Below are positions 28,304 through 64,000 of a stretch of 64,000 nt of DNA, in pieces. Each line of letters opens with the position of its first letter. Positions within the stretch are counted from its first letter, which is position 1. Source of the DNA: Arthonia radiata (Eukaryota; Ascomycota; Arthoniomycetes; Arthoniales; Arthoniaceae); assembly GCA_002989075.1 (NCBI GenBank), contig PSQN01000010.1, positions 682,001 to 746,000 on the forward strand. Direction: 5' to 3'. The notes beneath the pieces are model-generated. The model was not told where the DNA came from, ran no database searches, and saw nothing but the letters and a program-made list of their open reading frames with translations. A program made the position numbers and the translations under genes.

Positions 28304-30917
28304 ATGGGTCAGCATGATTTAACCTGCAACGGATGCAGGAGAAGATTCACAGTACAGGGAATTTATGACGACCATCGTCGGGACAATCCAGCATGTAAAG
28401 CGGCTTCCGTGCGACCGGCACCTGCAACGGGGCTCTCGGCGCAGGTGAGCCTTCCTCATTCGAATGTGAAGTGGAAAGAGCGTCCAGACAAATCGACGCT
28501 CTCGAAGTCTGCTAATACAGTTATATCCTACACCTTGTTCGGTGGCGTGGCAGCTTGTATGATACATGTCTAATGCATATTTAGGGCTCTGCATCTTCCC
28601 AAGGTCCGTCCAACTTCCGTTGTGAGCCTTGCGGCAAGTCTTTCAACAATCAGAACGGTCTCAACAACCACCTCGCATACGCTCCCCAGCACCAAACGCC
28701 GGCGGCCAGGACACCGTTTGTGCCGAACCCACAGAGTCGAAGCTTCAAAATGGGAAAGCAGAACAGGAGATTTCCCTCGCCAGGCAAAACTCCCAGGGAG
28801 TCAGCTCACGTCTCCAACCAGCGCACTCCAGCGACAGGCGCTAACGCCACCTCCTGGAGAGCATCTCCGCGAGACAACACTACCGTAGAACGGATGCCTC
28901 GAACGCGGACACGCGAGACTACTGCGACCACTAACGGCGGCTCGACCAATGGAGGCTGGGGCGAGCCGATCCGGCAGTCGGATCATGCCTGCGGCCGCTG
29001 TGCTAAGGCTTTTCGCTATAGAATAGATCGCTATAAGGTCTGTGGTGCTGGCGCACACATGCTCTTATGTGCTTACTGACACTAAGTGCCCAGCATATGG
29101 TAGCGGAACACCCTGAGCACGATCCAGGCACCAAGCCTGAGAATGACCATCCGTCGTGGGACACCGAGCCAAGTTGGGACAATACGAACGACGACACCGT
29201 CTGGGGTGCCCCCACCACTGGGAATGACACATGGGCTACATCGACGGATCAGAATGGATGGAGTCGCAGTCCAGCAAATGATTGGAAAGCTGAACCTTTG
29301 CCAGCAGAAGCAGCTTCAATGACGAAAGAGGATAAGACGCTGAAGCAAAAGCCAGCCAATCGTTCTGATGGCATCAAGAGCAGCGTGTACAGTGGTGGAG
29401 CTCTGTTGCCTGATCGATACGCACCAACGTTGGCAGGGGCAGGGGTGTCGACAAATGACCGAAACTCCGCGGAAGGGAGCGCGGTCAACCTCGAGGACTC
29501 TGTTGAAAAGGGCAAGGTGGCGGATCAAGATGGACACCTACGAAATGGTGATGACGACGTGAACAGCGCGCTCTCGAAGATGACCTTGGCTGGCCCTACT
29601 CCAGCTATTGCTGTGTCTGTCCAAGAACTTCCAACAAACTCAGCAGCTCCAACATATGGCAGTGAATGGAGCAAGGGTATTGGCGGTCAAGCCAACTGGG
29701 GCCCGTCAAATGAGCGTTCTGGGTGGTACGTCGACCCACCGTCAGACTGGATGGTTAGACCCTCTCCAGCCGAGGCTGCAAAAATGGCAAAAGAGAGCAA
29801 GCAAACCTCACGATCTCGGTCACCGAGTGTCATTAGCACAAGCAACCCAACATGGAAGCCGCCTTCTCGAGCGACAAGCACCAGCAGTCGTGAGACTTTA
29901 ACGCCTAAGGCCACGGGCCATTCTAGACTTTCAAGTAGAAGTCAGGCCGAATTCGCTACTGGCGGTGACCTATATCGGCCCCAGAGCAGCAACTCAATGA
30001 AGGGCAAGCACAGAGCATCCTCACGTACCACTGATTCCACCAGAGACACTCCTGACGATGGCGCTGGGCGGCCGCATGACCATACGCAGATGCTTATTGA
30101 CGTTGATGAGGAGGAGCCGCGGGATACTATGCTTAAGAGCCAAACTTTACCTCCACAAGAGCCGCCTCGAGAAAAGATCGATGGCCTAGCGAATGGTATG
30201 CGGGACTCAGCGAAAGGGAGGCATTCACTCTCATTCCACGACGATCAAGAATATAAGAAACAAAAGCAGGCTCATGTTGCTACACCTTCCCGCGATGAGA
30301 TCACGCACAATGACGAAGACTCGATGCGGGGAGGTGCCGGTGTAAATCAAGAGAAAGGACAACATCAACAACCTGAGCAGCAACATGATGAGCCACCAAT
30401 GCGAGGGGGCTTCGAGCGTAAATACTACGATCTACGTGCGTTGCAAGAACGACCGCTACGTGATGGCCATGGCTCTCGATACACACGGCTATTGCCCGGC
30501 TCCTCCACGAGTGAAGACTACCTCCCTCAATTCGACCGCGCGACAGGGCAATCGGATGATCGCGCGCGCGCTGAACGATTGAACATGCAATACCGCAATC
30601 GTAATGCACCATCTCTCTCACCTCCGCCGCGTCAGCAGCAAATCAGAACCAATGGCGTCCACACCGTCCATCATCGCCCTGATCATCGAGTCGAGCAGAA
30701 CACTGACTTCCTTGCTCGCCTCGTCAATGACCTCGGCGACCTGCGCAAGGAAATGGAGACTGGCCTTGCGTCTGTTAGAAGCGACGTGTCGGAGTCGAGG
30801 CGGAGGGACTACGATGAGGCGTATAGAAAGGGTCGCCGGGACGCGATGAGGGATATCATGGATGACTACCATCGCATGACTCCGAGAGACTTTCAGCGGA
30901 GGTATGCGCAGGTCTAG
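28304..30917 (+). CDS. C2H2-type zinc-finger protein with internal repeats
   Basis: Three exons, 28304-28444, 28585-29037 and 29094-30917, give 805 residues. Three finger-like units share CX2CX12H spacing: CNGC at about 8-11 (last ligand C), CEPC on exon 2 (HLAYAPQH) and CGRC, whose His ligands begin on exon 3 (HMVAEHPEH). Intron 2 thus cuts finger 3 between K and H. A long disordered region follows, rich in S, N, W and G. It holds two copies of a unit: NGWSRSPANDWKAEPLPAEA followed by ASMTKEDK, and SGWYVDPPSDWMVRPSPAEA followed by AKMAKESK. A coiled-coil-like segment near the C-terminus (about 700-790) ends in an Arg-rich DYHRMTPRDFQRRY. Binding of nucleic acid is inferred from the fingers. 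I do not recognise an ortholog. Confidence 0.78.
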
Positions 30918-31151: not shown

Positions 31152-32132
31152 TCAATGGCGGCCATGATGCAATTTAGAGCTAGGACTCCTCATATGGCGC
31201 GTTTCAAAGTGGACTGCATATGAGATCGGAAAGCGCGTGAATGCCTTCGTGGGCTTGAATTCGGCATCTATTCGTACATTAGGACATAGTCTGCACAACG
31301 GAAAAGGCTTACTAGATCTTCCACCGGTCACTTCAGGTAGGCCTCGGGACGAAATCTTCGTCCTCTGTCCACTCGAAGATCCCTCGGAACGTGCCGGCTC
31401 CGCCGTCTGGGAATGTCCGCCTCCCCAGATAGGGTTGACTATTGACATTGCGCTGGCAGAAGCCGGGCCTTGGATCTTGCCACATCCAGACGCAGAAGAT
31501 ATAGCAGGAGCCGGTTGCACTGAAATAGAGGCAAATGACTCGCTTTCCTTGGCGCCAGACGGTGACGGCGGCTTGCTCTGGGGCTTGGGCGTCGGAGCAG
31601 TGGGCTTTTGCTTCTCCTTGTTCAGAGCCGCTGCCTTCTGCTTCTTCAGACCCGGAGAAGGCTCACATCCATTTAACGTTGATGATCCCTCTTCGCGTCG
31701 GAAGCGGTCAACGTTAACGTGATCTAACTCCGGGAACGAACCCGTGTTAGCCATATCCATGAAACGGTCAAGGTAGTAGACGAATCCTGCTCGAGGGCAA
31801 CATAAGCTCTCAGGATCTGCATCCGCTCGCCTCGGAACCATCACGATATACGGGACGTGAGTTGGCACAACGCGATCTCCCTTGATCTCGGTGTCTTCGG
31901 GACTGAAGACGCCTCGGGTGAATGCGCGTGCCGCCTCATCGCCGTGCTTACTCATGAAGTCAATTACCGTTGCAGCTGCATCGGCATCGTCTCGAGCAAG
32001 CGCGCCTCCGCACAAAGTGGCTTGCCATTCGAAAGCCCCGACATCAGGATACTGCTGTTCCTGCGAGACTTCTGACGAACGTGGACTTGGGGCTTTCGCC
32101 TTGCCTTTGTCCTTCTTCTTGTTTCTCGCCAT
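31152..32132 (-). CDS. Orphan protein with a C2H2-like C-terminal motif
   Basis: A single exon encodes 326 residues from a well-placed ATG. The N-terminus is basic (MARNKKKDKGKAKAPSP), like a nuclear or nucleolar signal. A folded-looking block at about 30-145 includes VPTHVPYIVMVPRRADADPE and CCPRAGFVYYLDRFMDMA. A disordered middle, rich in S, P and K, follows. Near the end, CRLC is followed after 24 residues by HFETRH, a C2H2-like set with an unusually long loop that may bind zinc. I recognise no family. It sits beside the tandem orphan array and shares no clear motif with it. Confidence 0.6.
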   Translation of the reverse strand: MARNKKKDKGKAKAPSPRSSEVSQEQQYPDVGAFEWQATLCGGALARDDADAAATVIDFMSKHGDEAARAFTRGVFSPEDTEIKGDRVVPTHVPYIVMVPRRADADPESLCCPRAGFVYYLDRFMDMANTGSFPELDHVNVDRFRREEGSSTLNGCEPSPGLKKQKAAALNKEKQKPTAPTPKPQSKPPSPSGAKESESFASISVQPAPAISSASGCGKIQGPASASAMSIVNPIWGGGHSQTAEPARSEGSSSGQRTKISSRGLPEVTGGRSSKPFPLCRLCPNVRIDAEFKPTKAFTRFPISYAVHFETRHMRSPSSKLHHGRH

Positions 32133-32941
32133 GACGGTGAGACTGGGAGGAAGAGCAATATAGTACTACCTGGTTATGCACTGATGTTGGCGAGGAGTGA
32201 AGGGATCCAGTTGCGTGTTCTAATACGCAAGAGTGAGTTAGCGCATACTGATCATTTCCCAAAAAAGTAATACCGAGCGGGCATCTAACCTTGCCCGATG
32301 CTAGCGCGACCTCCTGCATGTGGTCCGTGTGTCGGAGCCCGTTCCCTCTACAAGTCTTGTTTACATCAACGCTATCCATTCACTATCATGGCCCAAGGGC
32401 TCGAGAGCTTCCTCCGGGTCTGTCAATCTCAAAGCTATGGTGAGAAGGGGTACGAGATAACGACGAGTCAGACATGCTCGACGATCTGTGGGACGAGACA
32501 CTGGAGAGTGATGTTTTCGTTCTTCTATATCGAAATGTACCAACAGTTGGAGATCCTAACCAGCTTAACGTGGCGCAAGCGAAGGTTACGATGGACAACT
32601 AGATTCATAGCGAAGCATATCAGTTGCATCAGTTAGTAGGCCTGAACGACGAAGGTGACCAAGGCTCCCTGTTACGACAAAGCTACATATAGAATGGCAA
32701 GACAGAGCAAACGCATTAAAATAGAACGCATGGCATCAAGTGGCAATTTACATTCAGCGGCAGCGCCCTCTTTAACCCGAGGGCAAACGGAGTAATTTAC
32801 GTTCGCTTCCTGTGCGTACAAAGCAACAACATTTGTGCTTCGCAGCAACTTTTCCCACTTGTTGAGATGCTCTGTACCTGCATCTAAGCCTGCCTTAACT
32901 ATCACAATATTCTTCAGAAACGGATCAACGGCTACGACAGC
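32133..32941. other. Intergenic region upstream of the orphan array
   Basis: No gene is supported. The region separates the divergent orphan (start 32132) from the first array gene (start 32942). Unlike the leaders of the second, third and fourth copies, I see no TATAAA or TATATAA 120-170 bp upstream of the first copy. Confidence 0.4.
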
Positions 32942-33829
32942 ATGTCTACCCCCTCATCAAGCTCGCTTCAGATCGCAGACTACAGCCAGATGCTCGACTG
33001 GTTCCACACCATCGTGCTGCGCGTCGACGAACCTCCGAAAGGACCAATAGGCGACGTCGAGAGAAAGATCTTTAGCAGGCTTAAACTCGAAGTACACTTC
33101 TACCGCCAGTCCAGCCAGCTCATTGTGTTCTCAACAGGGCTGCGCGAGGAATCTAAAGCGCTAAAGGCTGTCAACAAGGTCGTCATGACAGGCCATTGGT
33201 CCCTCGAGGAAGAGCTTTACAGAAACCGCCCTGGAAAGTCGGGAACGCATACATTCGACCAGCTTGCGCTGCTTGCCACGCACTTCGTCCAGTCTGTGTA
33301 CGATTTCCGCACGGCAGAAGAGCATGGCAGTAAGGCGATACCGATCTATACGCAGAACATGAGGTACACTGCTCACGACAGACGCGCGTTGGAACATCTG
33401 TGGATCAAAATCACGGCCAGTGCGGAACAGATAATCGATGAGAATATCTTCTGGTATCCTTGCTCTGTGGAAGCCGCAGCACACCCACCAGACCTGATCG
33501 ACCGTGCACCAGCCATCATGTTCTGCAGCGACCTGGCGCAGAATCCTGATCTACCGGCGGACCTGCGCCAAAAGTTTGCAGAGCGCTACGTTCAGGTTCC
33601 GCTTGGCTCAGTCATCCTCTCGCCGGAGTGGGAAAACGCTGGGAATGCCAATGTCGGAGCGGCGTTCAAGGACGAGCGGTTGTGGATCCGCGAGGACTTG
33701 TATAAGGAGTCTGAGGTTGACGATCTTTGGCGAGATATTCGGAGTCAGATCTCTCGGATTAGGGAGATGCCGGCTGAGGCTCAAGACGTATTTGTGAGAC
33801 TGTTGCAAGATAGTAATTCGAGCGAGTAG
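32942..33829 (+). CDS. Tandem orphan family, copy 1
   Basis: An intronless gene of 295 residues. Visible family features in order: a Trp near the N-terminus (QMLDWFHTIVL), the block KALKAVNKVVMTG, a helix LALLATHFVQSVYDF, the core block NMRYTAHDRRALEHLWIKI, an ENIFWYP strand, APAIMFCSDLAQNPDLP, and the signature RLWIREDLY at about residues 245-253. Here the protein continues for about 40 residues after the signature (a charged helix including IRSQISRIREMPAEA); the other copies stop at or before it. There is no signal peptide or membrane segment, so it is probably intracellular. I recognise no known domain and assign no function. Confidence 0.72.
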   Translation: MSTPSSSSLQIADYSQMLDWFHTIVLRVDEPPKGPIGDVERKIFSRLKLEVHFYRQSSQLIVFSTGLREESKALKAVNKVVMTGHWSLEEELYRNRPGKSGTHTFDQLALLATHFVQSVYDFRTAEEHGSKAIPIYTQNMRYTAHDRRALEHLWIKITASAEQIIDENIFWYPCSVEAAAHPPDLIDRAPAIMFCSDLAQNPDLPADLRQKFAERYVQVPLGSVILSPEWENAGNANVGAAFKDERLWIREDLYKESEVDDLWRDIRSQISRIREMPAEAQDVFVRLLQDSNSSE

Positions 33830-34593
33830 GCCTTGGTAGCGCTTGCTGGCGGGTAAGGTAGGTGCCGGCTGTAGCAGTGCCTTTGTTTGTCACGGTCCAT
33901 TGCCAGCCCAAAGTGTGGATATTGCACTCACCAGCTCGTTTCTGGCTCTGCTCAGCGCGTCATACCCGCGATTTGAGAAGTCTATCTCTAAATTGAAGCT
34001 TCTGTACTGATTTGAAGGTCAAGCAACCATGGCACCTCGCCAACTATCCGATAGCCTCCATGGCCAAGGACAAAGAGCGTGACTTACTGTAGCACTGCCT
34101 CCGATGACCTTACTTTCCATGCTCTCGATGCCCGTCAGTGTCAGTAGTTTTCCTCCGGTGCAAATTCCCGTGCGTGAGCGCACCTAAAGGCTGGGGTACG
34201 TACGCATCGCGTGCACCCGTATCAATCAGCAGCATCCCTTTTCTTATCCTTACATACCCACCTCCGAACCGCTCTTTACTTTCAAGAACGCGTTCACCCG
34301 CAACAGAGCGTCGGTCGCATGCGGTGCCGGGAAGATCCAGTTGCTTTGTCACGGATGAGGACGGCATGGCTCGAGACGGCTCCGCAATGCTGGTGACGCT
34401 GTCCGGCTCGGTGGAGCGTGCTGAACCGCCGTCTGTCAGACAAAGAGCCAGCGACATGGAGCTTATATAAGACTGCTCTTCTGCTGTGTGAGTGTGAAGC
34501 AGAACACAACATCCAGCACAAGCTCCACAACTCAACTCAGAATCACGATACTTCGAAAGCAACCCTCTAACACTGTAGTCACCTCAGTCTGAG
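33830..34593. other. Spacer and promoter between array copies 1 and 2
   Basis: A TATATAA box lies at 34464-34470, 130 bp upstream of the copy 2 ATG. The leader between them is rich in A and C (acaacatccagcacaagctc). Open frames on both strands (for example minus strand 34110-34562) share no family motif and I do not call them. Confidence 0.5.
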
Positions 34594-35442
34594 ATGGCTT
34601 CTTCGTCGAACGAAGCCTACCCCATCGAACTGAGGACGCACGGAAACTGCGTCAAATGGGTACGATCAATGATCGACACCGTCGACCCTGCCAGATCTCA
34701 TCTCAAAAAGAAGCCGGTTCAAACAGACGAGGCCACCGGGGAAATGCTTGATCGACTGCTCATACAAATCAGGGAGTGTTACAGCGACACAAGATGTCAG
34801 GCCGTATCGGCGGCGCTCAAAGAGCATCCTAATGCTCTCATCAACGTCAACAACATCATTTTTGAGCATGCCTTTTCAATAGAAGCAATCGGGGATGGGC
34901 CAACAGTGACGAAACCAACCCTCCCCACAGATTCATCCCTCTCCATCGGTCCGTCCCTCTACAAGTTTCTCGCGCTCTTGCTCAAGCACGTTTGTGAGAT
35001 CATCAAAGACCACAGAGATGGTGCGAAATCACAAGGATACCTCGGAGCGGAGCGACCTCAAATCAAATTCTACGCTTGCAGCCCAGGTTATACGCCAAAC
35101 GACGCTGTGTTCCTGGACTGGTTGCATATGCAACAGCTGCGAATATTCGAGATGCCCGACCCTCCTTATGATCGTCGCACAATATGGTTTGGCCCTTTTG
35201 CTGCATTACCAAACGCCAATATGCGACTGTTCCGTGGCGAGGTGAAGCCGGCTATTCTTTTCTGCACCGACTTACCAGCAGACGCTGGCTTACCAGGAGA
35301 CGACGGAAAGGAGTACTGGGAAGTGCTGAACGCCAAACTGCCGGCGAGCCCGTCCTCTGAGTATTCTGCCTCAGAGAGTGATACATTACAGAAGGGCATA
35401 TTCGGACCGATGCGGTTATGGATCCGAAAAGATCTTTGGTAG
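34594..35442 (+). CDS. Tandem orphan family, copy 2
   Basis: An intronless gene of 282 residues. Family blocks in order: NCVKWVRSMIDTV near the N-terminus, AALKEHPNALINVNNIIF at about 73-90, a helix KFLALLLKHVCEIIKDH, SPGYTPNDAVFLDWLHM, DRRTIWFGPF, KPAILFCTDLPADAGLPGDD and the terminal RLWIRKDLW, after which the stop follows at once. The middle has an insertion between the second and third blocks compared with copy 3. It looks intracellular, with no signal peptide. Function unknown; homology to the other three copies rests on shared order and spacing of motifs. Confidence 0.75.
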   Translation: MASSSNEAYPIELRTHGNCVKWVRSMIDTVDPARSHLKKKPVQTDEATGEMLDRLLIQIRECYSDTRCQAVSAALKEHPNALINVNNIIFEHAFSIEAIGDGPTVTKPTLPTDSSLSIGPSLYKFLALLLKHVCEIIKDHRDGAKSQGYLGAERPQIKFYACSPGYTPNDAVFLDWLHMQQLRIFEMPDPPYDRRTIWFGPFAALPNANMRLFRGEVKPAILFCTDLPADAGLPGDDGKEYWEVLNAKLPASPSSEYSASESDTLQKGIFGPMRLWIRKDLW

Positions 35443-36242
35443 AAGAACAGATCGGCAATCCCAGGAATGGCAAAACGACTGCTGATTCGGCCAAGACAAT
35501 GCTGCGCGATCAACGACCGGATGCGGCCAGGAACGTCGCGTGCTCACCGGCCCAGGGGAAAAAGCTTGTCTTGGTATGGAGAATATTAGCTTTATAATGT
35601 TTAATACACAGTCACTCTTTTAATTACCCACCTTTCCGTGAACATCAGCAGATGCGACTTTGCTATTCCTCAATGTGAAAGATGCTCCCAGATTCGAAGT
35701 AAGCATTTCGCAAGCTCGCGTCAGCTCATGAATGCCGTTACCCTAGAGTTGTAGCCTTTCGACCTCGAAATGACCAGGTTGCTTGGCACATATCGCCAAA
35801 TTTTTTGTCCCGTGCTGCTCGACCTTGAAAGATGGCTGTCTTTGCTCAGCTGACACCTTACCTATCCAGACGGTTCCCAAAGGGTGGAGTCTGCTCCGTC
35901 CACGCCGCGTCCAGCCCGCGAGTCGTCTCTAAGCGATTGCAACTGCTCATATCGGCGGGTAAAGGTGGTCCTGTTGGCTTTATTCTCGGCATCAGAGGGC
36001 TCTTTTAATGCCTCATCTCGGTTAGATGCTACTATCACCGCTCCTCATCATGGTGAAGCGCGTCAAGCCGACCGCGCTCCTAACAAAGACTCAAGGATAT
36101 GGAGGCTATAAAGGACCGCTCCGCCGCCATGTAAGTGAGGTGCAGACACTCAACAGTCCTCAGCACCCACTACCACCACTCTTGCTATATCTACCCACAG
36201 ACACGCTTAGGGCATCCTATATACTTAACCGTGGGAAGGAAC
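35443..36242. other. Spacer and promoter between array copies 2 and 3
   Basis: A TATAAA box lies at 36107-36112, 136 bp upstream of the copy 3 ATG, nearly the same distance as in copy 2. The open frame upstream of 36243 has no ATG. A GTAAGT at about 36131 could start a leader intron. No gene is seen. Confidence 0.5.
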
Positions 36243-37022
36243 ATGGCGTCCTCACCAGGTCAAGCAGCGCAACAGGCCGAGCAAAACGTCGATCGATTCG
36301 ACCACTATGATCGCATGGCGGAATGGGTTCGGAGAATCGTGATATCCACAGGGACAACTACGGAGAACGATAGAGCCAGCACTCACAAGACCGGTGTGAT
36401 AATTCTCCATAATATTACTGAGGGTGTCAACTTCTGCTGGAACTCAGGTCTTAGGAGGACATTAACCGAGGCACTTCAAAAGCATCCAGATGCTCTCAAA
36501 GCAGTTGATAAGGTCGTCTTCAACGGAGGGGACTCACTGCAGAATCACCATACTTTCAAAAAAAAGCACGGAAATCCTGTCATCGCTATGCAATTCGCAC
36601 TTGTTGTCACCAGCGTCGTCGAACCCATTCACGACGGCAATGACCCTCCTCGCCAGATTTACACTTACATGGACGATCCACGATATACTAGCAACGATAC
36701 ATGGGCCTTGAGACGGATGTGGGTGAGCGCAGAGATCGACATCTACGACAAGATCGATCGGAAAACGTTGTGGTATGCTCCGCATCCTCTAATACTCGAC
36801 CTTGAGGAAGTAGAACGGCAACCAACTATTATCCTTGGGCTCATTCCTTTCCTGAACTTCCCGAATGGATTTAGTGATCAAGGGGGACAACCTCTCTACA
36901 TTCAAGAGGTGAGCGCGGGACTTCCAGAGGGCGAGGATCCTGAGGAGGGAGATACAGAGCGGCAGAAGATGTGGGATGCATTCAATGGCATGCAACTGTG
37001 GATCCGGCGTGACTTGTGGTGA
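36243..37022 (+). CDS. Tandem orphan family, copy 3
   Basis: An intronless gene of 259 residues, with an ATG in good context (gaacATGG). Family blocks: RMAEWVRRIVIS near the N-terminus, ALQKHPDALKAVDKVVFNGG at about 80-99, a helix MQFALVVTSVVEPIHDG, YMDDPRYTSNDTWALRRMW, DRKTLWYAP, QPTIILGLIPFLNFP and the terminal MWDAFNGMQLWIRRDLW directly followed by the stop. This copy shows the motifs most cleanly. It has no signal peptide or membrane span. Function unknown. Confidence 0.76.
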   Translation: MASSPGQAAQQAEQNVDRFDHYDRMAEWVRRIVISTGTTTENDRASTHKTGVIILHNITEGVNFCWNSGLRRTLTEALQKHPDALKAVDKVVFNGGDSLQNHHTFKKKHGNPVIAMQFALVVTSVVEPIHDGNDPPRQIYTYMDDPRYTSNDTWALRRMWVSAEIDIYDKIDRKTLWYAPHPLILDLEEVERQPTIILGLIPFLNFPNGFSDQGGQPLYIQEVSAGLPEGEDPEEGDTERQKMWDAFNGMQLWIRRDLW

Positions 37023-38065
37023 CTCAGATTACTTCTGTCTCTGGGAGAGCACACCGTCAGCATTTAAGAATTGAATAGTCCTCAGTCGGGTTTTAAGGGA
37101 GGAGGTGATCATGAAGATGGAAGTGAACTGGGACAGCTGTTGATCATCCATTCCATTCCATCCCATCATTCATCGAAGTAATTGATCATCGCGTCATCTC
37201 ATGGCTGGCTGGACATCGATGATGGGCGGATCGAGACTTCATTTGGCACGCGAAAGGTCAGCTTTGTAGTAGCATAATGTTTAATACGAAATCGATTTAA
37301 ACGACGTACATTCTTCTTTAAATCGTCGGGGACGAGCCAGAATCTGCCTTGGGCGCTTTGGAAAAACAAGGCTTTAGACGAGTCCACTCAAAATGTTGAA
37401 TAGCTTGCTTAACTTGAAGTCGGCTTATAGACTCTTCTCGTAATTCTCAATCAGCTAAGTCGAGCGCCGCTTCTTACCACTTAAAGCCACTTTTGTGGCA
37501 AGCTTCATTAAACGGCTTCGGTCTTGGGGAATGTGGGGTGAGAGACAACGATGCAAGATCTGGTGGTCATTATTCAGTTGCCGCGAAGCTCGTGTCAAGC
37601 CTGTGTCGGACCGCATCAAGCAGCCAACGACGGTTGAAAACTGGTAGCGATACAACCCTCTTGCAAACGGTATGCGATTTACTTCGAGCTTCTTGAGTGA
37701 CATCTTTGAGTGTGTCGTCTGCGGCATGAAGCGGTCTCAGCAGCCGCAAGCCGCTCCAACCCACATTGTAGCGGAGCGCCCAACGGCTTACTGGCAGTGC
37801 CGATGGCCGTTATGGTGCGGGTGGCAGCGACTGACCACCGCTCTCGAGGGTGGATGCGTCTTCAACCGCGATGTACTGGTGAAGGGTCAGCAGAATGATC
37901 ATTATAAAGATGTTGTTGGTAGCACTTTGTTTTGACACAATCAACCCAATTGCATTACCCCAGCTGATACTCCTATTGAGTGCAATAAAAGCCATCAAAA
38001 CAGATCACCTCGTTTCAAACCCACTCAACAATAACCCTCGGATCAGCTCCACCAAAGCAGTACCC
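37023..38065. other. Spacer and promoter between array copies 3 and 4
   Basis: A TATAAA at 37903-37908 lies 163 bp upstream of the copy 4 ATG and inside the longer open frame that begins at 37895. That argues that the longer start is not used. The rest shows no gene. Confidence 0.45.
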
Positions 38066-38827
38066 ATGGCAGATGATATGAGGACCTGGGCCAAAGGCTA
38101 TTGTACCGAGATTGAAAAGAACGTCACGATACCGGCCGCAGAAGCAACGAGGAAGCACGAGCTCCCATATGATGAGCAGATGTTCAGGCAGCTGAGACAT
38201 GAGGTGGCCATATGCCAGAAGTCCCCTTTGCTTCGTAACGTACCGGAAACGCTGTCGTCGCGCCTGGAGAAGGATACCAAAACTTTGGAAGAAATCGAAA
38301 AAGTGGTGTTCGTCGGGGAAAGTTGCCCGGATGTGGCATGGCAAGACCCTGCGGCGGCCGACGGCCAGGCACTTTTACAGCTTGCGCGACTTCTAGAACA
38401 TGGCGTCAAGCCCATAGCCCACGCTAAGCGCGACAAGTATCCTGGCAAAGAAAACAAACTTGACGTCTTCTTCTGTTGCGAGGATTTGGAGTACGCGGAC
38501 AAAACATTCTTGGAGTACCTTCACATTACCCCTTTGGAGAAACTCAACGGCGATAGCGTCGACCGGACTACCTTGTTGTTTTCTGTCAGTGAAGATGTCG
38601 ACACTTACTTGAAGAATGTCTGGGAGCGAGCTCCTCCAATCCTGCTGATAAAGGATCTGAATCTGGTAGAAGCGTGGAGCTTTATATACGGCAACATCAA
38701 ACAGCGCTATGAGCAACTGGAAGAATTCAAGATTCCAATCAGGGAGTTGAATACTGATCAGTCTGAAGACGACAACTCTACAGTGGTGGAGAAGATCTGG
38801 AATGCATTTCCTGACATGGGTCTTTGA
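38066..38827 (+). CDS. Tandem orphan family, copy 4, C-terminally shortened
   Basis: An intronless gene of 253 residues from the ATG at 38066 (MADDMRTWAKGY). A longer frame from the ATG at 37895 would add 57 residues, but a TATA box sits inside it. Family blocks: TWAKGYCTEI, EKDTKTLEEIEKVVFVG, the helix ALLQLARLLEHGVKPI, DLEYADKTFLEYLHI, DRTTLLFS, APPILLIKDL and WNAFPDMGL. The protein then stops at TGA where the other copies read Trp: the next codons, GTC AGG AAA, still resemble the I-R-K of the LWIRKDLW signature. It has lost the signature through a premature stop but otherwise stays open, so it may be a functional variant or an early pseudogene. Confidence 0.65.
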   Translation: MADDMRTWAKGYCTEIEKNVTIPAAEATRKHELPYDEQMFRQLRHEVAICQKSPLLRNVPETLSSRLEKDTKTLEEIEKVVFVGESCPDVAWQDPAAADGQALLQLARLLEHGVKPIAHAKRDKYPGKENKLDVFFCCEDLEYADKTFLEYLHITPLEKLNGDSVDRTTLLFSVSEDVDTYLKNVWERAPPILLIKDLNLVEAWSFIYGNIKQRYEQLEEFKIPIRELNTDQSEDDNSTVVEKIWNAFPDMGL

Positions 38828-51642: not shown

Positions 51643-52860
51643 TTACAACTCTATGGAGCTACTGCGTCTTCTTCGCTTCCGCTTCTCGTTTGCGCGGTGT
51701 CTCGTCGTGCTGGGACTTTGGCTGTCTCTGATGTCGTTGCTGTCAAGCCCGTTCCTCGAATACGCAGGGCTCTCACTGTAGTCCCGACGACTTTCTTGCG
51801 ATTTCTGGTTGGTTTTGCTCTCCTTCGCGAGCCTCTTCGCCTCCTTGCGCGCTCGTTTCTCCTCTTTGTGTGCTTTGCGGGCAAGTTCTTCGGCTTGTTC
51901 TGGTTCTTCAGAGTCTTCCAGGTGCGGTGTGATGCCATTAACTTTGCTATGCTGCCTGATTGATGAATCCTCCTCAGCTCCTGGTTCTGCGTCGAGATCT
52001 TCGGCCTGGTCTTCGCGTTGTGCTTCTGCTTCTTTACGCCGCCGCTTCTCCTCTTTCCTGGCTCTGCGCTCCAGCTTCTCATTGCGTTGTGGGTCCCCAT
52101 GGACCTCAAACGCCTGGGACGACACGCCATTGATACTGCTATGCAGACCATGCGGCAGCTCATCCTCCTCATCCGCCATCTCCTCAGCGAGCTCATCATG
52201 CTCCTTCTTCACTTCTTCTTCCTTCCTCCGCCGTCTCTTCTCGTCCTTCCGCCTTTTCTTCGCCGCCCGCCTCACCTCCTCATCATTGTCTTCTTCCTCC
52301 CTCTCCACATCCCTCTTCCTCTTCTTCTCCCTCCTCTCCTTCTTCGCAGCCTCATCAGTCCTCGTAATATCCGGAACCTCCCCATCCCCAACCACATCTC
52401 CCCTCGCCCCAAGCTCCCCCTGCTCCCTCATCTGCTCGCCGTACCCTTTCTCAGCCTGCATCTCCTCCTCAAAGCTATCAGGCACCACCTCCTCGTCATC
52501 CCCAAGCACAACCGGATCCTCCAGCGCGCCTCTCGCCGCCTCCAATCCCTCCCGTGTAATCACCTCCGTCTCCCCCTCCTGGAAACCCTCTGTCTCCTCT
52601 TGTGGGACCAGCCGGATTCCTCGCAAGCCCTTGGCGACGCGCGAGAGTTGATGGAGGACCAAAGAGCCGCCTGGTGCGCGGCCTTCGAGTGTGGGACCAT
52701 GCTCGTTGAAGCGGACGTCGGGGTGGAGGTGTGCGTGGTGGGGTTGCGCGGAGAGGGTGAGGTAGGTTTCGATGTGCTTAAGGGCGGTGGCGGGGGTGAT
52801 GGGGCGGGTGGAGAGGGTGTGCGATGGGGGCGGGATGGCGGTGAAGAGGGTGTTTGACAT
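51643..52860 (-). CDS. Lys/Arg/Glu-rich orphan, probably nuclear
   Basis: A single exon encodes 405 residues from the ATG at 52860 (MSNTLFTAIPPPSHTL); the open frame upstream has no ATG. Residues 1-100 look folded (ALKHIETYLTLSAQ, HLHPDVRFNEHGPTLEG, LHQLSRVAKGLRGIRLV). Residues about 155-400 are extremely charged with repeated RRKEEE, KKRRKDEKRRRRK and KEEKRARKEAKRLAKE, forming a long charged helix or coiled coil. Such composition is common in nucleolar proteins, and the position next to ribosome-related genes fits but proves nothing. I recognise no domain. Fungal homologs with a short N-terminal domain and basic tail are likely. Confidence 0.7.
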   Translation of the reverse strand: MSNTLFTAIPPPSHTLSTRPITPATALKHIETYLTLSAQPHHAHLHPDVRFNEHGPTLEGRAPGGSLVLHQLSRVAKGLRGIRLVPQEETEGFQEGETEVITREGLEAARGALEDPVVLGDDEEVVPDSFEEEMQAEKGYGEQMREQGELGARGDVVGDGEVPDITRTDEAAKKERREKKRKRDVEREEEDNDEEVRRAAKKRRKDEKRRRRKEEEVKKEHDELAEEMADEEDELPHGLHSSINGVSSQAFEVHGDPQRNEKLERRARKEEKRRRKEAEAQREDQAEDLDAEPGAEEDSSIRQHSKVNGITPHLEDSEEPEQAEELARKAHKEEKRARKEAKRLAKESKTNQKSQESRRDYSESPAYSRNGLDSNDIRDSQSPSTTRHRANEKRKRRRRSSSIEL

Positions 52861-53204
52861 TTTTGGGTTGGGGTTGGGTGGAAGTGAGAGTGGGCGTATG
52901 CGCAAATTAGGGGTGGGTGGCCGTCATTTTCGTTGAACTTGCGTCTTGCTGAGCTGGTGAGGTACTTTACGAGGGGCGGCAGGGGGGTTTGTAGTGATAT
53001 GTAAAGAGCGTTGGACACTGAAGTCAATGTTCAAAAAATCAGCGATCTTCGAGGGCAGTTTTACGCGGGGAAACCTCGGTTGTGGATGCCGCTTTGGACG
53101 CTAGCTGTTCGTCTCGTCTTTGTTGACTACAAACTGCTATTCGTACTACTCAACTGTTCGAAATCGCAATCCTAAGATACATAGCCTGCTGAGAAGCAAT
53201 CACA
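52861..53204. other. Divergent promoter between the charged orphan and bL34m
   Basis: This 344-bp segment separates two divergent start codons. A single TTAGGGG lies at 52907-52913. A single unit is too little to call a telobox. No gene is seen. Confidence 0.4.
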
Positions 53205-55698: not shown

Positions 55699-57872
55699 TG
55701 CAGACAATAAGATTTTGATACTGTTAACTTTGTTAAGTCGAGCTTCTCACCGCTACCCTGCCATCTATTGCCCCATTTAGCCCGCACCGGTCACGCGCTA
55801 CCATCAACAACAACCCAAGATCATCGAGTCGACATCGCTTTCAAGACCCGATGAACCAAGATCTATGCCTTCCATAATCCTCCGTTACTGACTGTGCGCC
55901 ATCGACGCCACTGTCTACCTCCATGAAGCCAGTATATAGGCATGTGACTGAGCTCTTCAGGTTGCTAGGAGTTACATGGTGTGTTTGTGAGGGCGACCTC
56001 ACGTCGTGAATTGAGCTCAAGGATAAAAATACCCGCCTTGAGCTACATTGATCTTTTCAAATCAAGCTGTAGAACCCGTGGCGAGTGAATGAACAACATA
56101 AATATCGGCAAGTATCATCTCCTTCATCACTTCATAAGGAAGCTATGGAGTTTCGCGCTGATGGAAAGCGCGAGTTTGGTCGCTCCCTTGCATTGCATCC
56201 AGCACCCAGCGTTACCAAGCTATTGTTGACGAAAAGCGAAAAACAAGACACCATGACCTGCGAAGGCGAGCTTACAGCGAACCACGTCATACCCTCCCTG
56301 AAGGATCAGCTACAATTCTAAGGCACGATTGCGATGTTGATTTCGCGTTAGATTCCTACCGTTGGAAGACGTAGGCGAACAGTAGGTATTGTTTTGACAA
56401 GAAAGCAATGACATCCACCTCGAGCACGAAAACTACACGCTAAGAGAGGAACCGCCTATCGTTACTGAGCACATGAGTGCTAACAAGGAGCCCCGATAAT
56501 AACGTTTACCAATGCTTGCTATGAACTCAATCACGCTATCTCTGACTGGAATAAAGCGGATGGACACGAATAGCAACAGCGGAGCAGAAGCCATCGCTGC
56601 TGACACATTCTGGATTCCAGTAGCGTAGACTCCTCAAGGAGGCGCCCGTCAGGCTCACCATCTCTTTCGATTGACTACACCGTTTACTGAGATGACCGCT
56701 GATGTTTTTCCATGTCACCACGGCACAGTCAATGAGTCTGAAAGATGAAAGAATCCCATCGCATCTCCTGTGACTCACACTTTGACTGGCCCATGATAGG
56801 AGATATCTTCTCGTCCTTGAGCATAGGCTGAAGAGGTCTTGAACTGGGCCTCTGGAGAGGAAATGCGAGGCAGAGCTGACACGGAGATGAGTCGCAACCG
56901 CGTCTAGTGGCCGTCTAGTACCTCTCGAAAGGGGGGGGGTTGTGGCTTTAGAGCAAGTCATTGTCGCCAGAGCTGAGCCCTCGCCGAAGACCAGAAATAG
57001 AGCGACCTACATGAAGTGTTTGCCTGGCATTAAACTGCTAGCAAGGACACGGAGTCGAATGCGACATTGACGTTCAATACCTTGTCGACGAGGAAGAAGC
57101 TCCATGGGGTGAATGAATGTGGCTTCGAAGAGCTAGAAGAGACCGCGTTGGGCGTTGAAGGGTCCCGCGCCTCGCGGCTCGTGCCTTGGAGCGGACTTAC
57201 CGAATGAGCTACTTCCCACTGGCACACATCCGCGTGTGAATGGAAACTCTTTTGCTATTCTAGAATGGCGCAGAGAATGAGTGGTCAGTATGTTTCCTTT
57301 TCATACCGCGCTAGTATGCGGACTGCATGACACTAGTGAGGAAGAAGCTAAAAGTGGCTCGAGCGCAGCCGCGGTGTTGCGACAGACGCGACGGGAGATA
57401 TCAGCCTCGATCCTAATGACATCTTCCTGTCTACCTTTCTTAACATCGCGCAGTAATCTTGCGGCTACGGAGACGTGCTAGATGACTGTTCTGACAAGGT
57501 GTCTGTGCTGAAGGTTTCAGGCCGTGATTCTGCCTGCGCCTGGACAGCGTGTACGCTCCAATGAGGGAGACCCATTGTCGGAAAAGCATCCATAATGACA
57601 GTCTACCGCCGTGCATTAGCATCTTCATGGTGGTTGCCCTTTGAGATGGTGCCAGACTGATCATGCATTCGAGGCGTTCACCTGAGATATGGGGGTTCAT
57701 GAGGCTTCTCGGCACCCTCTCAGCCCAGGGCACAGTCATTGTTCGCATTAATGATATAAAGGTAACACAGGTGACTTGTAGAAGGTTGGCATCCTCTTTG
57801 TACATTTGCAAGACGAGCCTATCGTTCAACCACCTCCAAAACATCTTCCACGCTTAATTGAGCTCCTATTGT
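55699..57872. other. Long intergenic region
   Basis: This holds 2.2 kb without a supported gene. Frames on both strands are short (below 145 codons), lack good ATG starts or overlap one another; none shows a domain. A G9 run lies at about 56931. The first bases are the promoter of the mitochondrial Met-tRNA synthetase and the last few hundred that of the next orphan. A spliced or non-coding gene cannot be excluded. Confidence 0.4.
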
Positions 57873-58700
57873 ATGCCAGTCACCAGATCTCAGAGTCGTG
57901 CAGCATCTAGCGTCCCCGGATCATCCGCATCGAGTCAGCCTTCAATACTCCAGGAGAACCTGCAGGCTTCGTCAGGCGTCTCAAGCTCTGCTCAGGCTGT
58001 GATCAACTATCCAGACGAGCACAGTCGCCTCTTCCACAAGCTCACAAAGAATCTCGACCTCTTTCAACCTACGTACCTCAGACCAGATCAGCTCGAGCAC
58101 GCCAAGTACGGTGTCTTTCCCCATCACCTCGACCATCTCACCCGAATCAAGACTCAGTCTTATATGACCTGGGCGAACGCTGTTGCATTAGTAGCCTTAC
58201 AAAACGAGGACGCTCTCAATATCATGGCCAATGCTGTCGCCGACCCGATGCCCGCTCTCGAGGAACTCAGGAACCAAGTTCGAGACGTCTTGGACGACTA
58301 CTCACGCAACCCCGGCAGGACCTATGCTGAGACTCAAGTCGCAGACGACAAGCTTGAGGATGCGCTGAATGATTTGATGAATCAGACAGATTCGATCTCG
58401 AACGAACACCCAATGAATAGCGATGCCTGGGAGTTCGCAGTAGGCATCCTTATCCTCATCATGGAGGATCTGTGCGATCAGGTGCCCTCCAGACAGACCA
58501 CTCTCGATACCCATCTCGGCCTCATGGATACTGCTATGGATAAGATATCCAGCTTCACCGAGGACGTCAACAAGTTATACATCGATGAATTGCAAGGCAT
58601 TGTGCAGAAGCTGGAGCGCAGAGGCTCTTCTTTCGATGCCTCTGTAGCTGGGCTTACCGATAAAGTCAGGGATACTTTGCGCAGAGCCGAGCTGGCCTGA
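57873..58700 (+). CDS. Orphan helical protein
   Basis: An intronless frame of 275 residues from the ATG at 57873 (MPVTRSQSRAASS); the longer frame has no ATG. After a Ser-rich disordered N-terminus of about 45 residues, most of the protein looks alpha-helical and acidic (YPDEHSRLFHKLTKNLDLF, LEELRNQVRDVLDDYSRN, AWEFAVGILILIMEDLCDQ, LQGIVQKLERRG). There is no signal peptide; the single hydrophobic helix at about 190-205 is probably buried. I recognise no family. It shares no motif with the four-copy array, although both are intronless orphans. The coding call rests on frame length, an internal codon pattern and sensible protein composition. Confidence 0.6.
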   Translation: MPVTRSQSRAASSVPGSSASSQPSILQENLQASSGVSSSAQAVINYPDEHSRLFHKLTKNLDLFQPTYLRPDQLEHAKYGVFPHHLDHLTRIKTQSYMTWANAVALVALQNEDALNIMANAVADPMPALEELRNQVRDVLDDYSRNPGRTYAETQVADDKLEDALNDLMNQTDSISNEHPMNSDAWEFAVGILILIMEDLCDQVPSRQTTLDTHLGLMDTAMDKISSFTEDVNKLYIDELQGIVQKLERRGSSFDASVAGLTDKVRDTLRRAELA

Positions 58701-59865
58701 GCGCTCAATTGCAGCAGTCATATTGACGTAGGCGTCGTGACAGCAATGGCTGGGTGGGGCACTGTGAGGGTAGTGATGGGGAGGCGTCTTTCCTTTGTTC
58801 AATTTTGTTTCATTGACTTCAATTCTTTACACCTTTGCTGCAGGACAGCAGAGCCATTGGAAAAAAGGGTTCTGGAAGCTCACACTTTCATTTCATGTAC
58901 ATACTTGCGACATCACTTCGTTCCTTGGGCGGCTTTGTGTGGATCAGCAGCTAGTAAAAGTAGATGAGCAATCACAAGACGTATTCTCCCTTTCCCAGCA
59001 AGCGGACCTGCACGACAACCTGGATAGCTCCTTCCTTCCCCACACTTCAGCACGCGTCATGCACGGTCTTTGTGTCACTTTGAAAGAGCCCTCGAGGTGC
59101 TCACACAACGGTCCATTGATCTGCAAGTCCTTCAAGCGCCGAGCTGCGTCTCCCTGTCTTAAAGCGGGGATGAACGGTTAATGATCTGCTGCTTCTCTCT
59201 TCCTGTCTTCCTCTGAACTCTTCAATCACTATTCACTCACTCACTGCCGGAAGATCCAACCTCGCGTCCATCTCCGAGCCAACTGTAGACGGGCGTTTGT
59301 TCGGACATCACGGAATCCGAGTAACGTCATCCGAAACGCGTCGCCGATCGCTTGTTTCAGACCTACGTGCTACCGTCGCACCTCCCTGGCTTCACCTCAG
59401 CTCGTCCATCTAGCAAGATTCTTTGCATTCCTGCTCTGGATCGCACAGGACGAAGCTCACACGACAGCAGGTTGTACAGCTTCAGCACTAACAGCGACAC
59501 TCCTCCAGGTCCAAGCTCAGGAGCTTGTACTGTTTACCCCGCAAATTGTTCGGGGCTAGATTGGGAGAGGTACAAGACCCGGTTTCACAGTTCCTCTGGC
59601 AGCATAACCACCGTATCCGTCGACGCCGCTCGAGCTTCTACATACCCGCCGCATCCTATCTATCACTCCTTATCAGTCCGGATCAGATCACCTCATCTTT
59701 GAACATACTGTATTATTAGAGCTTCCCCGAGCTTGAGACACCTCCCACCTGTCCACCTGTTCAGACGACAAGACCCATCCAGACCCCAGCAAAGACATCC
59801 GTGCTGCTCGCCACACCTCTACAGACACATCGCTCGCCACATCACACAGCAGCCACGTATCCATT
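58701..59865. other. Intergenic region with a long pyrimidine-rich leader
   Basis: No gene is supported. From about 59180 the plus strand has C- and T-rich stretches (ctcttcctgtcttcctctg) and a short cactcactcactc repeat near 59235. That suggests a long transcribed leader of the next gene. Frames here share no motif. Confidence 0.45.
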
Positions 59866-60738
59866 ATGACCTCGTCGGACCCCTCAGACGGGTCTCCACC
59901 CGGCCGCCGACGCCGCTCCTCCTTCACCGACATGTTCGCCAGACCCTCCATCGACACATCCACAGCTAACAGCGTCACCTCCAACGGCCCTCGCACATCC
60001 TCGATAGCATCCGCTATGCAACAGCGCGCACGCCGCATGTCCATCACTTCCGTCGGCCTCTCCGGCTCACCAAACGGGCCGAGCACAGCCTCCGCTTTCG
60101 ATACAATTCGGGGTTCCCAAGTGGGACAAGCACGGCCCGGTGCAAATCCCGGCATGGGGGAGGAGGAGGCGGTTGAGGACGCTGATGAGGTGCCACCGCT
60201 CAACGGCGAGGGCAGCAGGCCCACGAGCCCAACCGTGGGCAGGAGACTGAGCTTTGGAGCGAGAGCGTATCGCGCCAGCAGCGGCGCGAGCAGCAACGGG
60301 GATACAGGCGGGAGCGAGGGCAGTGATCGGAGTCCCAATGGTACTGCGGGCAGTCCGCCGGGGACGAAGAAAGGTGAGTGCCATCGTATACCTCGGAACG
60401 CTGTCCTTAGATCGCGAATGGAGCAGGACCGCTGGGCAACATACCATCGATGGAAAACGCCTTGTTCTGACGGTGTGCAGTATGCTGATGATCAAACAGA
60501 AGGCTTCAATTGGTCCGAGAATCTCCGCGCACGCGCTCAACGCTCTTCCATTTCCGCCGGCTCCGGCAACCCATCCTCTTTCATGCCGTTACCAGGCATG
60601 CACGCCAAATCACGCAGCGTCGCCGATCCAGGCGCAGCAGCTGCACCAGCGCCACCTCCACCTGCTCCTCCGCCCGCGCAGAAGCGGCCGGACCATTTCC
60701 AAGAGCGGATCTTGAAGGGAGACTTTTACATGGACTGA
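59866..60738 (+). CDS. Small Ser/Pro-rich conserved fungal protein
   Basis: Exons 59866-60373 and 60500-60738 give 248 residues. The 126-nt intron (donor GTGAGT, acceptor AACAG) is a multiple of three and has no stop, so the frame also reads through. Splicing is preferred because it joins TKKEGFNWSENLRARAQRSS, which is smooth and family-like, while the retained stretch is unlike the rest. The protein is disordered: a basic RRRRSSFTDMFARPSID start, RRMSITSVGLSGSP, TVGRRLSFGARAYR and a proline run APPPPAPPPAQKRPDHF. The repeated R-R-x-S sites could be kinase targets. It ends ERILKGDFYMD. Small proteins with the FNWSENLR motif are widespread in filamentous fungi and of unknown function. Confidence 0.75.
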   Translation: MTSSDPSDGSPPGRRRRSSFTDMFARPSIDTSTANSVTSNGPRTSSIASAMQQRARRMSITSVGLSGSPNGPSTASAFDTIRGSQVGQARPGANPGMGEEEAVEDADEVPPLNGEGSRPTSPTVGRRLSFGARAYRASSGASSNGDTGGSEGSDRSPNGTAGSPPGTKKGECHRIPRNAVLRSRMEQDRWATYHRWKTPCSDGVQYADDQTEGFNWSENLRARAQRSSISAGSGNPSSFMPLPGMHAKSRSVADPGAAAAPAPPPPAPPPAQKRPDHFQERILKGDFYMD

Positions 60739-62747: not shown

Positions 62748-63890
62748 TCAAGCCCGATAAGAATACTGATACTGCTTGACCTTGGTGCCATCCTTTGCCA
62801 AAAATTGCCGCTCCGTCACATACTCCCGCGCGCGCACATCGCGCGGGTCTTCCAGCATGCCCTTGATCTCTTCCCTGTTCGCGCTCGTCGCGCTCCTCTG
62901 CCTCTGCGCTGGTGCCTGTGGAGCTGGCCCAACCGACGTCGCGGCGCGTGACCGTGCGCGCGGCGGGTCAGGTGCTGGCACAAGGAAATCACGTTCGCGA
63001 TCAGGCTCGCTGCGTGCATGTCGGATACCACTTCGCGATGCAGAGCGGTGGCGAGAGCGAGACTCATGGCGATGCTGGCTACGATGTCGGTGATGGGAGC
63101 GGTGGTGGTGACCACTGTCCCGGTATGAGCGTGAGCGGCGCGGTCGATCGTCGTCAACTTCGTAGCGAATGTAGTGGTCGGATTCGTAGATCTCCACGGG
63201 CGCATCCTTAGCTCGAGAGCTACGTCGAGAACGCCGTGATCGCCTCTGATCATCTTCGTGCAAGACGATCTCAGGCGCATCCGGGACTGGTGGAGGTGCG
63301 AGGGACGATCGACGCTGTCGTGTGGGTGGCGCACGGGTCTCTAGGCGTGCGCTGGCGCTCTTTGCGTAGACTTCGGAGTCGCTGCTGAGGTCGTCTTCAT
63401 CCGACTCGTACTGGGTCTGCTTCGAGGTGGCTGGCGCATGGATGAAGACTGGGTATGGATCTGGCTGGGGTAGCTGAGCTGGGTGGAAGTCGGGAAGGCG
63501 CGCAAAGGTGTCTTCAGCGTAAAGCGTGGGTGAGCGCTTCTGGACGATGACAGGCGTTTGTCGTGACCGTTGGCCAAATCCTGACAGGCTCAGGCGATTC
63601 CGTCGTGTGCTGTTCGAAGGAGACCGTTTCTCAGTGTGGACGATCTGGCCATCGGTGATACGGTTAGAGTCGCTTGGTCTGCGCGCTATCGTGTTGTAGA
63701 CAGTCTCGCGCTGCGACGGTGTGACGGACATGTCGAGGGCGCGAAGAGCGTTACGGTGGTGGCGCTGTCGCGAAGGCAAGACGAGAGTTTGATCTGTCGA
63801 TGTCGGCTTTTCATGAAAGCCTTGACGATCAGGCACTGTGACGAGAACATCGGGGTGCCCTTTGGGCAGTTGTTTGATGATGAGACCCAT
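62748..63890 (-). CDS. Arg/Ser/His-rich orphan, disordered
   Basis: A single exon encodes 380 residues from the ATG at 63890 (MGLIIKQLPKGHPDVLVTVP). Most of it is disordered, with R-S, H-R and S-R repeats at about 215-300 (HHHRSHHRHRSQHRHESRSR) that resemble RS-type domains. Short ordered-looking ends remain: residues 1-25 and the C-terminal block ARAREYVTERQFLAKDGTKVK with KQYQYSYRA. The C-terminal block is likely the conserved part. An N-terminal Met-Gly is compatible with myristoylation, but I cannot judge the site. RS-like repeats hint at RNA binding or nuclear speckles; this is inference. I recognise no ortholog. Confidence 0.65.
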   Translation of the reverse strand: MGLIIKQLPKGHPDVLVTVPDRQGFHEKPTSTDQTLVLPSRQRHHRNALRALDMSVTPSQRETVYNTIARRPSDSNRITDGQIVHTEKRSPSNSTRRNRLSLSGFGQRSRQTPVIVQKRSPTLYAEDTFARLPDFHPAQLPQPDPYPVFIHAPATSKQTQYESDEDDLSSDSEVYAKSASARLETRAPPTRQRRSSLAPPPVPDAPEIVLHEDDQRRSRRSRRSSRAKDAPVEIYESDHYIRYEVDDDRPRRSRSYRDSGHHHRSHHRHRSQHRHESRSRHRSASRSGIRHARSEPDRERDFLVPAPDPPRARSRAATSVGPAPQAPAQRQRSATSANREEIKGMLEDPRDVRAREYVTERQFLAKDGTKVKQYQYSYRA

Positions 63891-64000
63891 TTTGGAGATG
63901 ATTGTCGAGTGTGTGTGAAGACCCGGATAGGATTTAAATTAGGATGGACCGGCGTCGGCTGACAAACCAGTTCACCTAGCTAGAGTCTCGAAAGGAACGA
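63891..64000. other. Upstream end of the window
   Basis: This short segment is the promoter side of the Arg-rich orphan. No further gene is visible. Confidence 0.35.

Follow-up and report, generated by a model that had tools for sequence, protein, structure and literature searches.

What do four neighbouring genes of Arthonia radiata encode, and are they the orphans they appear to be? The genes lie in tandem in a 64-kb stretch of contig PSQN01000010.1 (the window; contig C6 of a genome of 33.5 Mb in 16 contigs), and an earlier note on this DNA had described them as an intronless family without a known domain. Our analysis indicates that the array is real, that its family is the known SRR1-like domain family, and that it is a divergent branch of that family. 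The listing of open reading frames (ORFs) bore out four successive plus-strand genes, each in one frame:

32942..33829, + strand: g1, single-frame ORF, 295 amino acids (aa); LWIREDLY followed by a 41-aa tail; divergent SRR1-like
34594..35442, + strand: g2, single-frame ORF, 282 aa; C-terminal end LWIRKDLW; divergent SRR1-like
36243..37022, + strand: g3, single-frame ORF, 259 aa; C-terminal end LWIRRDLW; divergent SRR1-like
38066..38827, + strand: g4, single-frame ORF, 253 aa; most divergent copy, without the C-terminal motif; divergent SRR1-like

Common ancestry of the four genes, as previously proposed, was confirmed by pairwise alignment. All six pairs scored above all of their own 500 shuffles, with z ranging from 7.5 (g2–g4) to 24.5 (g1–g3). 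Identity to g1 is 24–28%, and the duplication is therefore old, as the earlier note had also held. The link of g4 is the weakest of the four, because single-query genome searches failed both ways: g4 did not find g1–g3, and g1–g3 likewise missed g4.

Named members of the SRR1-like domain family are yeast Ber1, fission-yeast Srr1, plant SRR1, mammalian SRRD and worm VIRO-9; the array shares this domain with Srr1 and budding-yeast Ber1. With the Pfam SRR1 model (PF07985; curated cut-off 24 bits), g4 scored 17.2 bits (E 0.0049) and g3 scored 13.3 bits (E 0.079), both under the cut-off, and no match was obtained for g1 or g2. We therefore classed g1–g4 as diverged relatives that fall short of Pfam-grade membership. 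The same model gave 17 matches in the host genome, 16 of them over the cut-off, and no match in any of 14 control genomes.

Nine of the 17 paralogues, those readable in one frame, were aligned without any window sequence (alignment A2; eight members over the Pfam cut-off, L021 not), and the A2 profile was run on all 302 window ORFs of at least 80 aa, taken stop to stop. The array genes were the top four of the 302, with E values of 9.8e-14 (g3), 1.3e-13 (g1), 1.3e-8 (g2) and 9.1e-7 (g4). The first non-array window ORF reached E 2.2, and the best of 1000 shuffled array-gene copies reached 0.012. In hhalign, the array profile (A1) aligned with A2 at 99.1% (4.2e-19), against at most 0.5% for 100 column-shuffled versions of A2; the likeness of the array to PF07985 and to the SRR1-like paralogues of the same genome (L005–L021, L046 and L065) thus extends over 211 profile columns. 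Direct array–paralogue pairs were weaker, with 13 of 36 beating all 100 shuffles (g1 3/9, g2 2/9, g3 7/9, g4 1/9); the strongest was g1–L007 (score 91, z 12.3). We conclude that g1–g4 almost certainly belong with the SRR1-like family, and that the array is probably an old, local tandem expansion of this known but poorly understood domain family. The earlier note had itself allowed that a known domain would end the orphan status, and the orphan claim fails because the profile tests tie all four genes to one.

A BTH_I2711-like Pfam match on g2 (E 0.15) and other isolated weak matches were judged to be chance. The genome search with g4 gave L026 as its sole other match (E 1.27), and no L026 ORF scored under E 1 with the profile.

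A common motif order had also been claimed for the four proteins. Its core signature was present in three of the four copies, but several of the exact motifs had been misstated. LWIRKDLW ends the protein in g2 and, as LWIRRDLW, in g3, but 41 further residues follow it in g1, and the g4 frame stops just before its position (...FPDMGL). Similarly, YTxND is exact in g2 and g3 but reads YTAHD in g1 and YA then D in g4, and KVVF is unaltered in g3 and g4 but is KVVM in g1 and NIIF in g2. The block given as P-x-I-x4-L is really P-x-I-x5-L in g1, g2 and g4, and g3 does not fit it. The C-terminal signature also occurs in SRR1 paralogues (WIRKDL in L007, WIRQDL in L006, WVRTNL in L020); the W-I-R-K-D-L strand is thus common to L006, L007 and the array, whereas g4 differs from the paralogues in lacking it.

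Besides scoring under the Pfam cut-off, the array differs from the paralogues in a loop glycine and, in three copies, in a D-P pair. All nine aligned paralogues have a glycine in third place of the loop that follows strand 1 (GLGS), and none of the four array copies does; L065, outside that alignment, also lacks it. We infer that this glycine defines the SRR1 family at large. The D-P-x-F block after strand 2 reads DPRY in g3, NMRY in g1, SPGY in g2 and CEDL in g4, so that the D-P pair is kept by six of the nine aligned paralogues and by one of the four array copies (g3 only). An aspartate four residues past this block is present in 13 of 13 aligned proteins, and g3 also keeps YAP then H after strand 4. 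No canonical SRR1 orthologue was seen among the paralogue frames read, and M-P-H-C, which we take to be a canonical SRR1 motif, was absent from them. According to PMC10219947, mutating a D-P pair impairs fission-yeast Srr1; we matched this pair to the D-P of the paralogues and g3 by motif reading, not by sequence alignment.

The genome holds at least 23 SRR1-like loci, namely the 17 model matches, L046, L065 and the four array genes; this is a lower bound, as only the best candidates were scored. L046 matched the SRR1 model below the cut-off (E 0.00089), and L065, without a Pfam SRR1 match, had a profile E of 8.6e-16. Some loci may be broken, for example L018 and L046, where a stop interrupts the match. 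Ten of the 17 matches sit in whole-looking frames of 252–478 aa. The array does not stand out as intronless, contrary to what had been suggested, since the window has other long single frames, such as the MCM7-, PEX1- and STE24-like ORFs.

In a 15-row tree, g1–g3 grouped together (89/95) and g4 fell beside L065, and the four copies as one clade were not rejected (approximately unbiased test, p 0.429). When L065 and L046 were left out of the tree (13 rows), a branch separated the four copies from the rest (78/47). Both trees omit L008, L010, L012, L013, L014, L016, L018 and L019, which contain in-frame stops, are split between frames or carry long expansions. Tree branches exceeded one change per column, and the divergence is saturated. 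The proposal that the genes are under selection drew indirect support from their long open frames, the persisting core positions and the conserved promoters of g2 and g3.

TATAWAR occurs eight times on the plus strand of the window, including sites 130, 136 and 163 nt upstream of the ATGs of g2, g3 and g4, respectively. None was found upstream of g1, and two of nine paralogues have one within 300 nt upstream. The upstream 170 nt of g2 and g3 gave a local alignment score of 35, whereas 500 shuffles never exceeded 16.5, and the aligned part contains the TATA box; the other five promoter pairs of the array aligned at chance level. The elements flanking the genes are:

34440..34533, + strand: g2 core promoter, conserved with the g3 promoter; TATATAAG (TATA) at 34464-34471
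36083..36181, + strand: g3 core promoter, conserved with the g2 promoter; TATAAAGG (TATA) at 36107-36114
37903..37910, + strand: g4 TATA box TATAAAGA, 163 nt upstream of the ATG at 38066
35594..35607, + strand: 14-nt word ATAATGTTTAATAC, downstream of g2
37274..37287, + strand: second exact copy of ATAATGTTTAATAC, downstream of g3

The g4 frame is open upstream to an ATG at 37895, which would give a protein of 310 aa. As the g4 TATA box lies 3' of this ATG, 38066 is the likelier start. The 14-nt word is a candidate shared 3' element of g2 and g3. In yeast, TATA boxes are a mark of regulated genes, many of them responsive to stress, and their presence at three of the four array genes would agree with regulated expression.

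The predicted model of g3 had a predicted template modelling score (pTM) of 0.76, and the models of g3 and L007 showed the same helix and strand order in the confident core, the C-terminal half of L007 being of low confidence. A sequence search of the PDB found no SRR1 structure; its only match up to E 1 with alignment A3, a rhoptry protein fragment (E 0.056), was judged to be chance. Foldseek gave no PDB match at E 0.001 or better. The top structural matches were mostly S-adenosylmethionine (SAM)-linked Rossmann proteins for g3 and were led by such proteins for L007, with modest fold scores. Like class I SAM-dependent methyltransferases, including those acting on loganic acid, geniposidic acid, catechol and theobromine, the array proteins appear to have an overall Rossmann layout, in which strand 1 leads through a loop and a helix to strand 2 and then an acidic residue.

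Each array gene probably encodes one alpha/beta domain of the Rossmann, class I methyltransferase-like type, with the LWIRKDLW block as the C-terminal strand that closes it. In the family, the strand 1 loop and the D-P that follows strand 2 would together make a pocket of nucleotide or SAM type, and at least three of the array copies would have this pocket in eroded form. Such erosion would suggest that the proteins are not enzymes but regulated binders or adaptors, with expression switched on by conditions through the TATA-type promoters. We put forward this pocket-eroded, regulated and non-enzymatic mechanism tentatively.

The array copies might instead be active enzymes that bind SAM or a similar ligand in an altered pocket and act on a lineage-specific substrate. 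SAM-linked Rossmann proteins dominate the top structural rows of g3 and head those of L007, and the residues that g3 retains after strands 2 and 4 would suit an active site of this kind. However, the loop glycine is gone from all four copies and the D-P pair from three, the fold scores are modest, and the fission-yeast paper describes the domain as having no known biochemical function (PMC10219947); we regard this alternative as unlikely. Another view is that the genes are relics of duplication under relaxed constraint, heading for loss, with frames open by inertia. This would fit g4, which has lost the C-terminal motif and sits on one of the two longest branches, as well as the varying putative pocket positions, but all four frames (253–295 codons) have stayed open at 24–28% identity to g1, the core signature is kept in three of four copies, and the core promoters of g2 and g3 are conserved. 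Decay therefore seems quite unlikely.

A true orphan family, with a domain unrelated to anything described, would account for the absent (g1, g2) and sub-threshold (g3, g4) Pfam scores, and for the single-protein genome searches, in which each query found only itself or array members at E < 0.01. The profile searches, the shuffled controls and the common C-terminal signature nevertheless speak for SRR1, and we consider an orphan origin very improbable. A broader picture is rather doubtful: the array may found a pocket-eroded, regulated branch within a large, fast-evolving SRR1-like family of filamentous fungi (in this genome at least 23 loci, two clusters), in which a methyltransferase-like domain would have turned into a recognition module without enzymatic activity, diversifying through tandem duplication.

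SRR1 domains are described as widespread and biochemically unexplained (PMC12455975, PMC10219947, PMC10868785, PMC11481519), and SRR1-domain proteins have been linked to plant circadian timing, yeast microtubules and chromosome stability, and worm virus replication (PMC12455975, PMC10219947). We found no description of an SRR1-like expansion in filamentous fungi in the literature, in a search that most subscription journals lay outside. Four genes otherwise called orphans now have a family name, and the at least 23 diverged natural copies, with and without the putative pocket residues, constitute a variant set that could separate positions needed for the fold from those needed for function.

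Elsewhere in the window, a Pfam scan of 20 other long ORFs gave matches for 14, mostly housekeeping, and the gene content includes MCM7, PEX1, Fungal_trans, Ilm1 and an STE24-type protease. The other six, some of which are perhaps chance frames, had no Pfam match at E <= 0.01:

29037-30917, + strand: ORF without Pfam match
31152-32165, - strand: ORF without Pfam match
51643-52923, - strand: ORF without Pfam match
57858-58700, + strand: ORF without Pfam match
59737-60738, + strand: ORF without Pfam match
62748-63938, - strand: ORF without Pfam match

A second SRR1-like cluster, consisting of L011, L010 and L008 (one plus-strand, two minus-strand), spans ~10 kb at G000:C13:1612822-1622825. The neighbours L008 (G000:C13:1622331-1622714, - strand) and L010 (G000:C13:1620051-1620467, - strand) have one in-frame stop each, TGA in one and TAG in the other. 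These stops share one aligned column, which holds Trp in L005, L011 and L013; apart from the stops both frames stay open, with total lengths of 493 and 529 codons. The protein likeness continues past the stop, with 53 of 139 aligned codons identical (differences by codon position 76/58/91), compared with 43 of 105 before it (50/33/84). The stops may have arisen as two nonsense changes that hit a single codon, or readthrough may be conserved here.

Two further loci of the family also carry in-frame stops. In L018 (G000:C9:60144-60422, - strand), a single TGA separates two segments, each of which matches the family profile, and the locus is a possible pseudogene. In L012 (G000:C4:466802-467155, - strand), the stop falls within GGTGAGTT, a likely intron donor, and this locus therefore probably has an intron.
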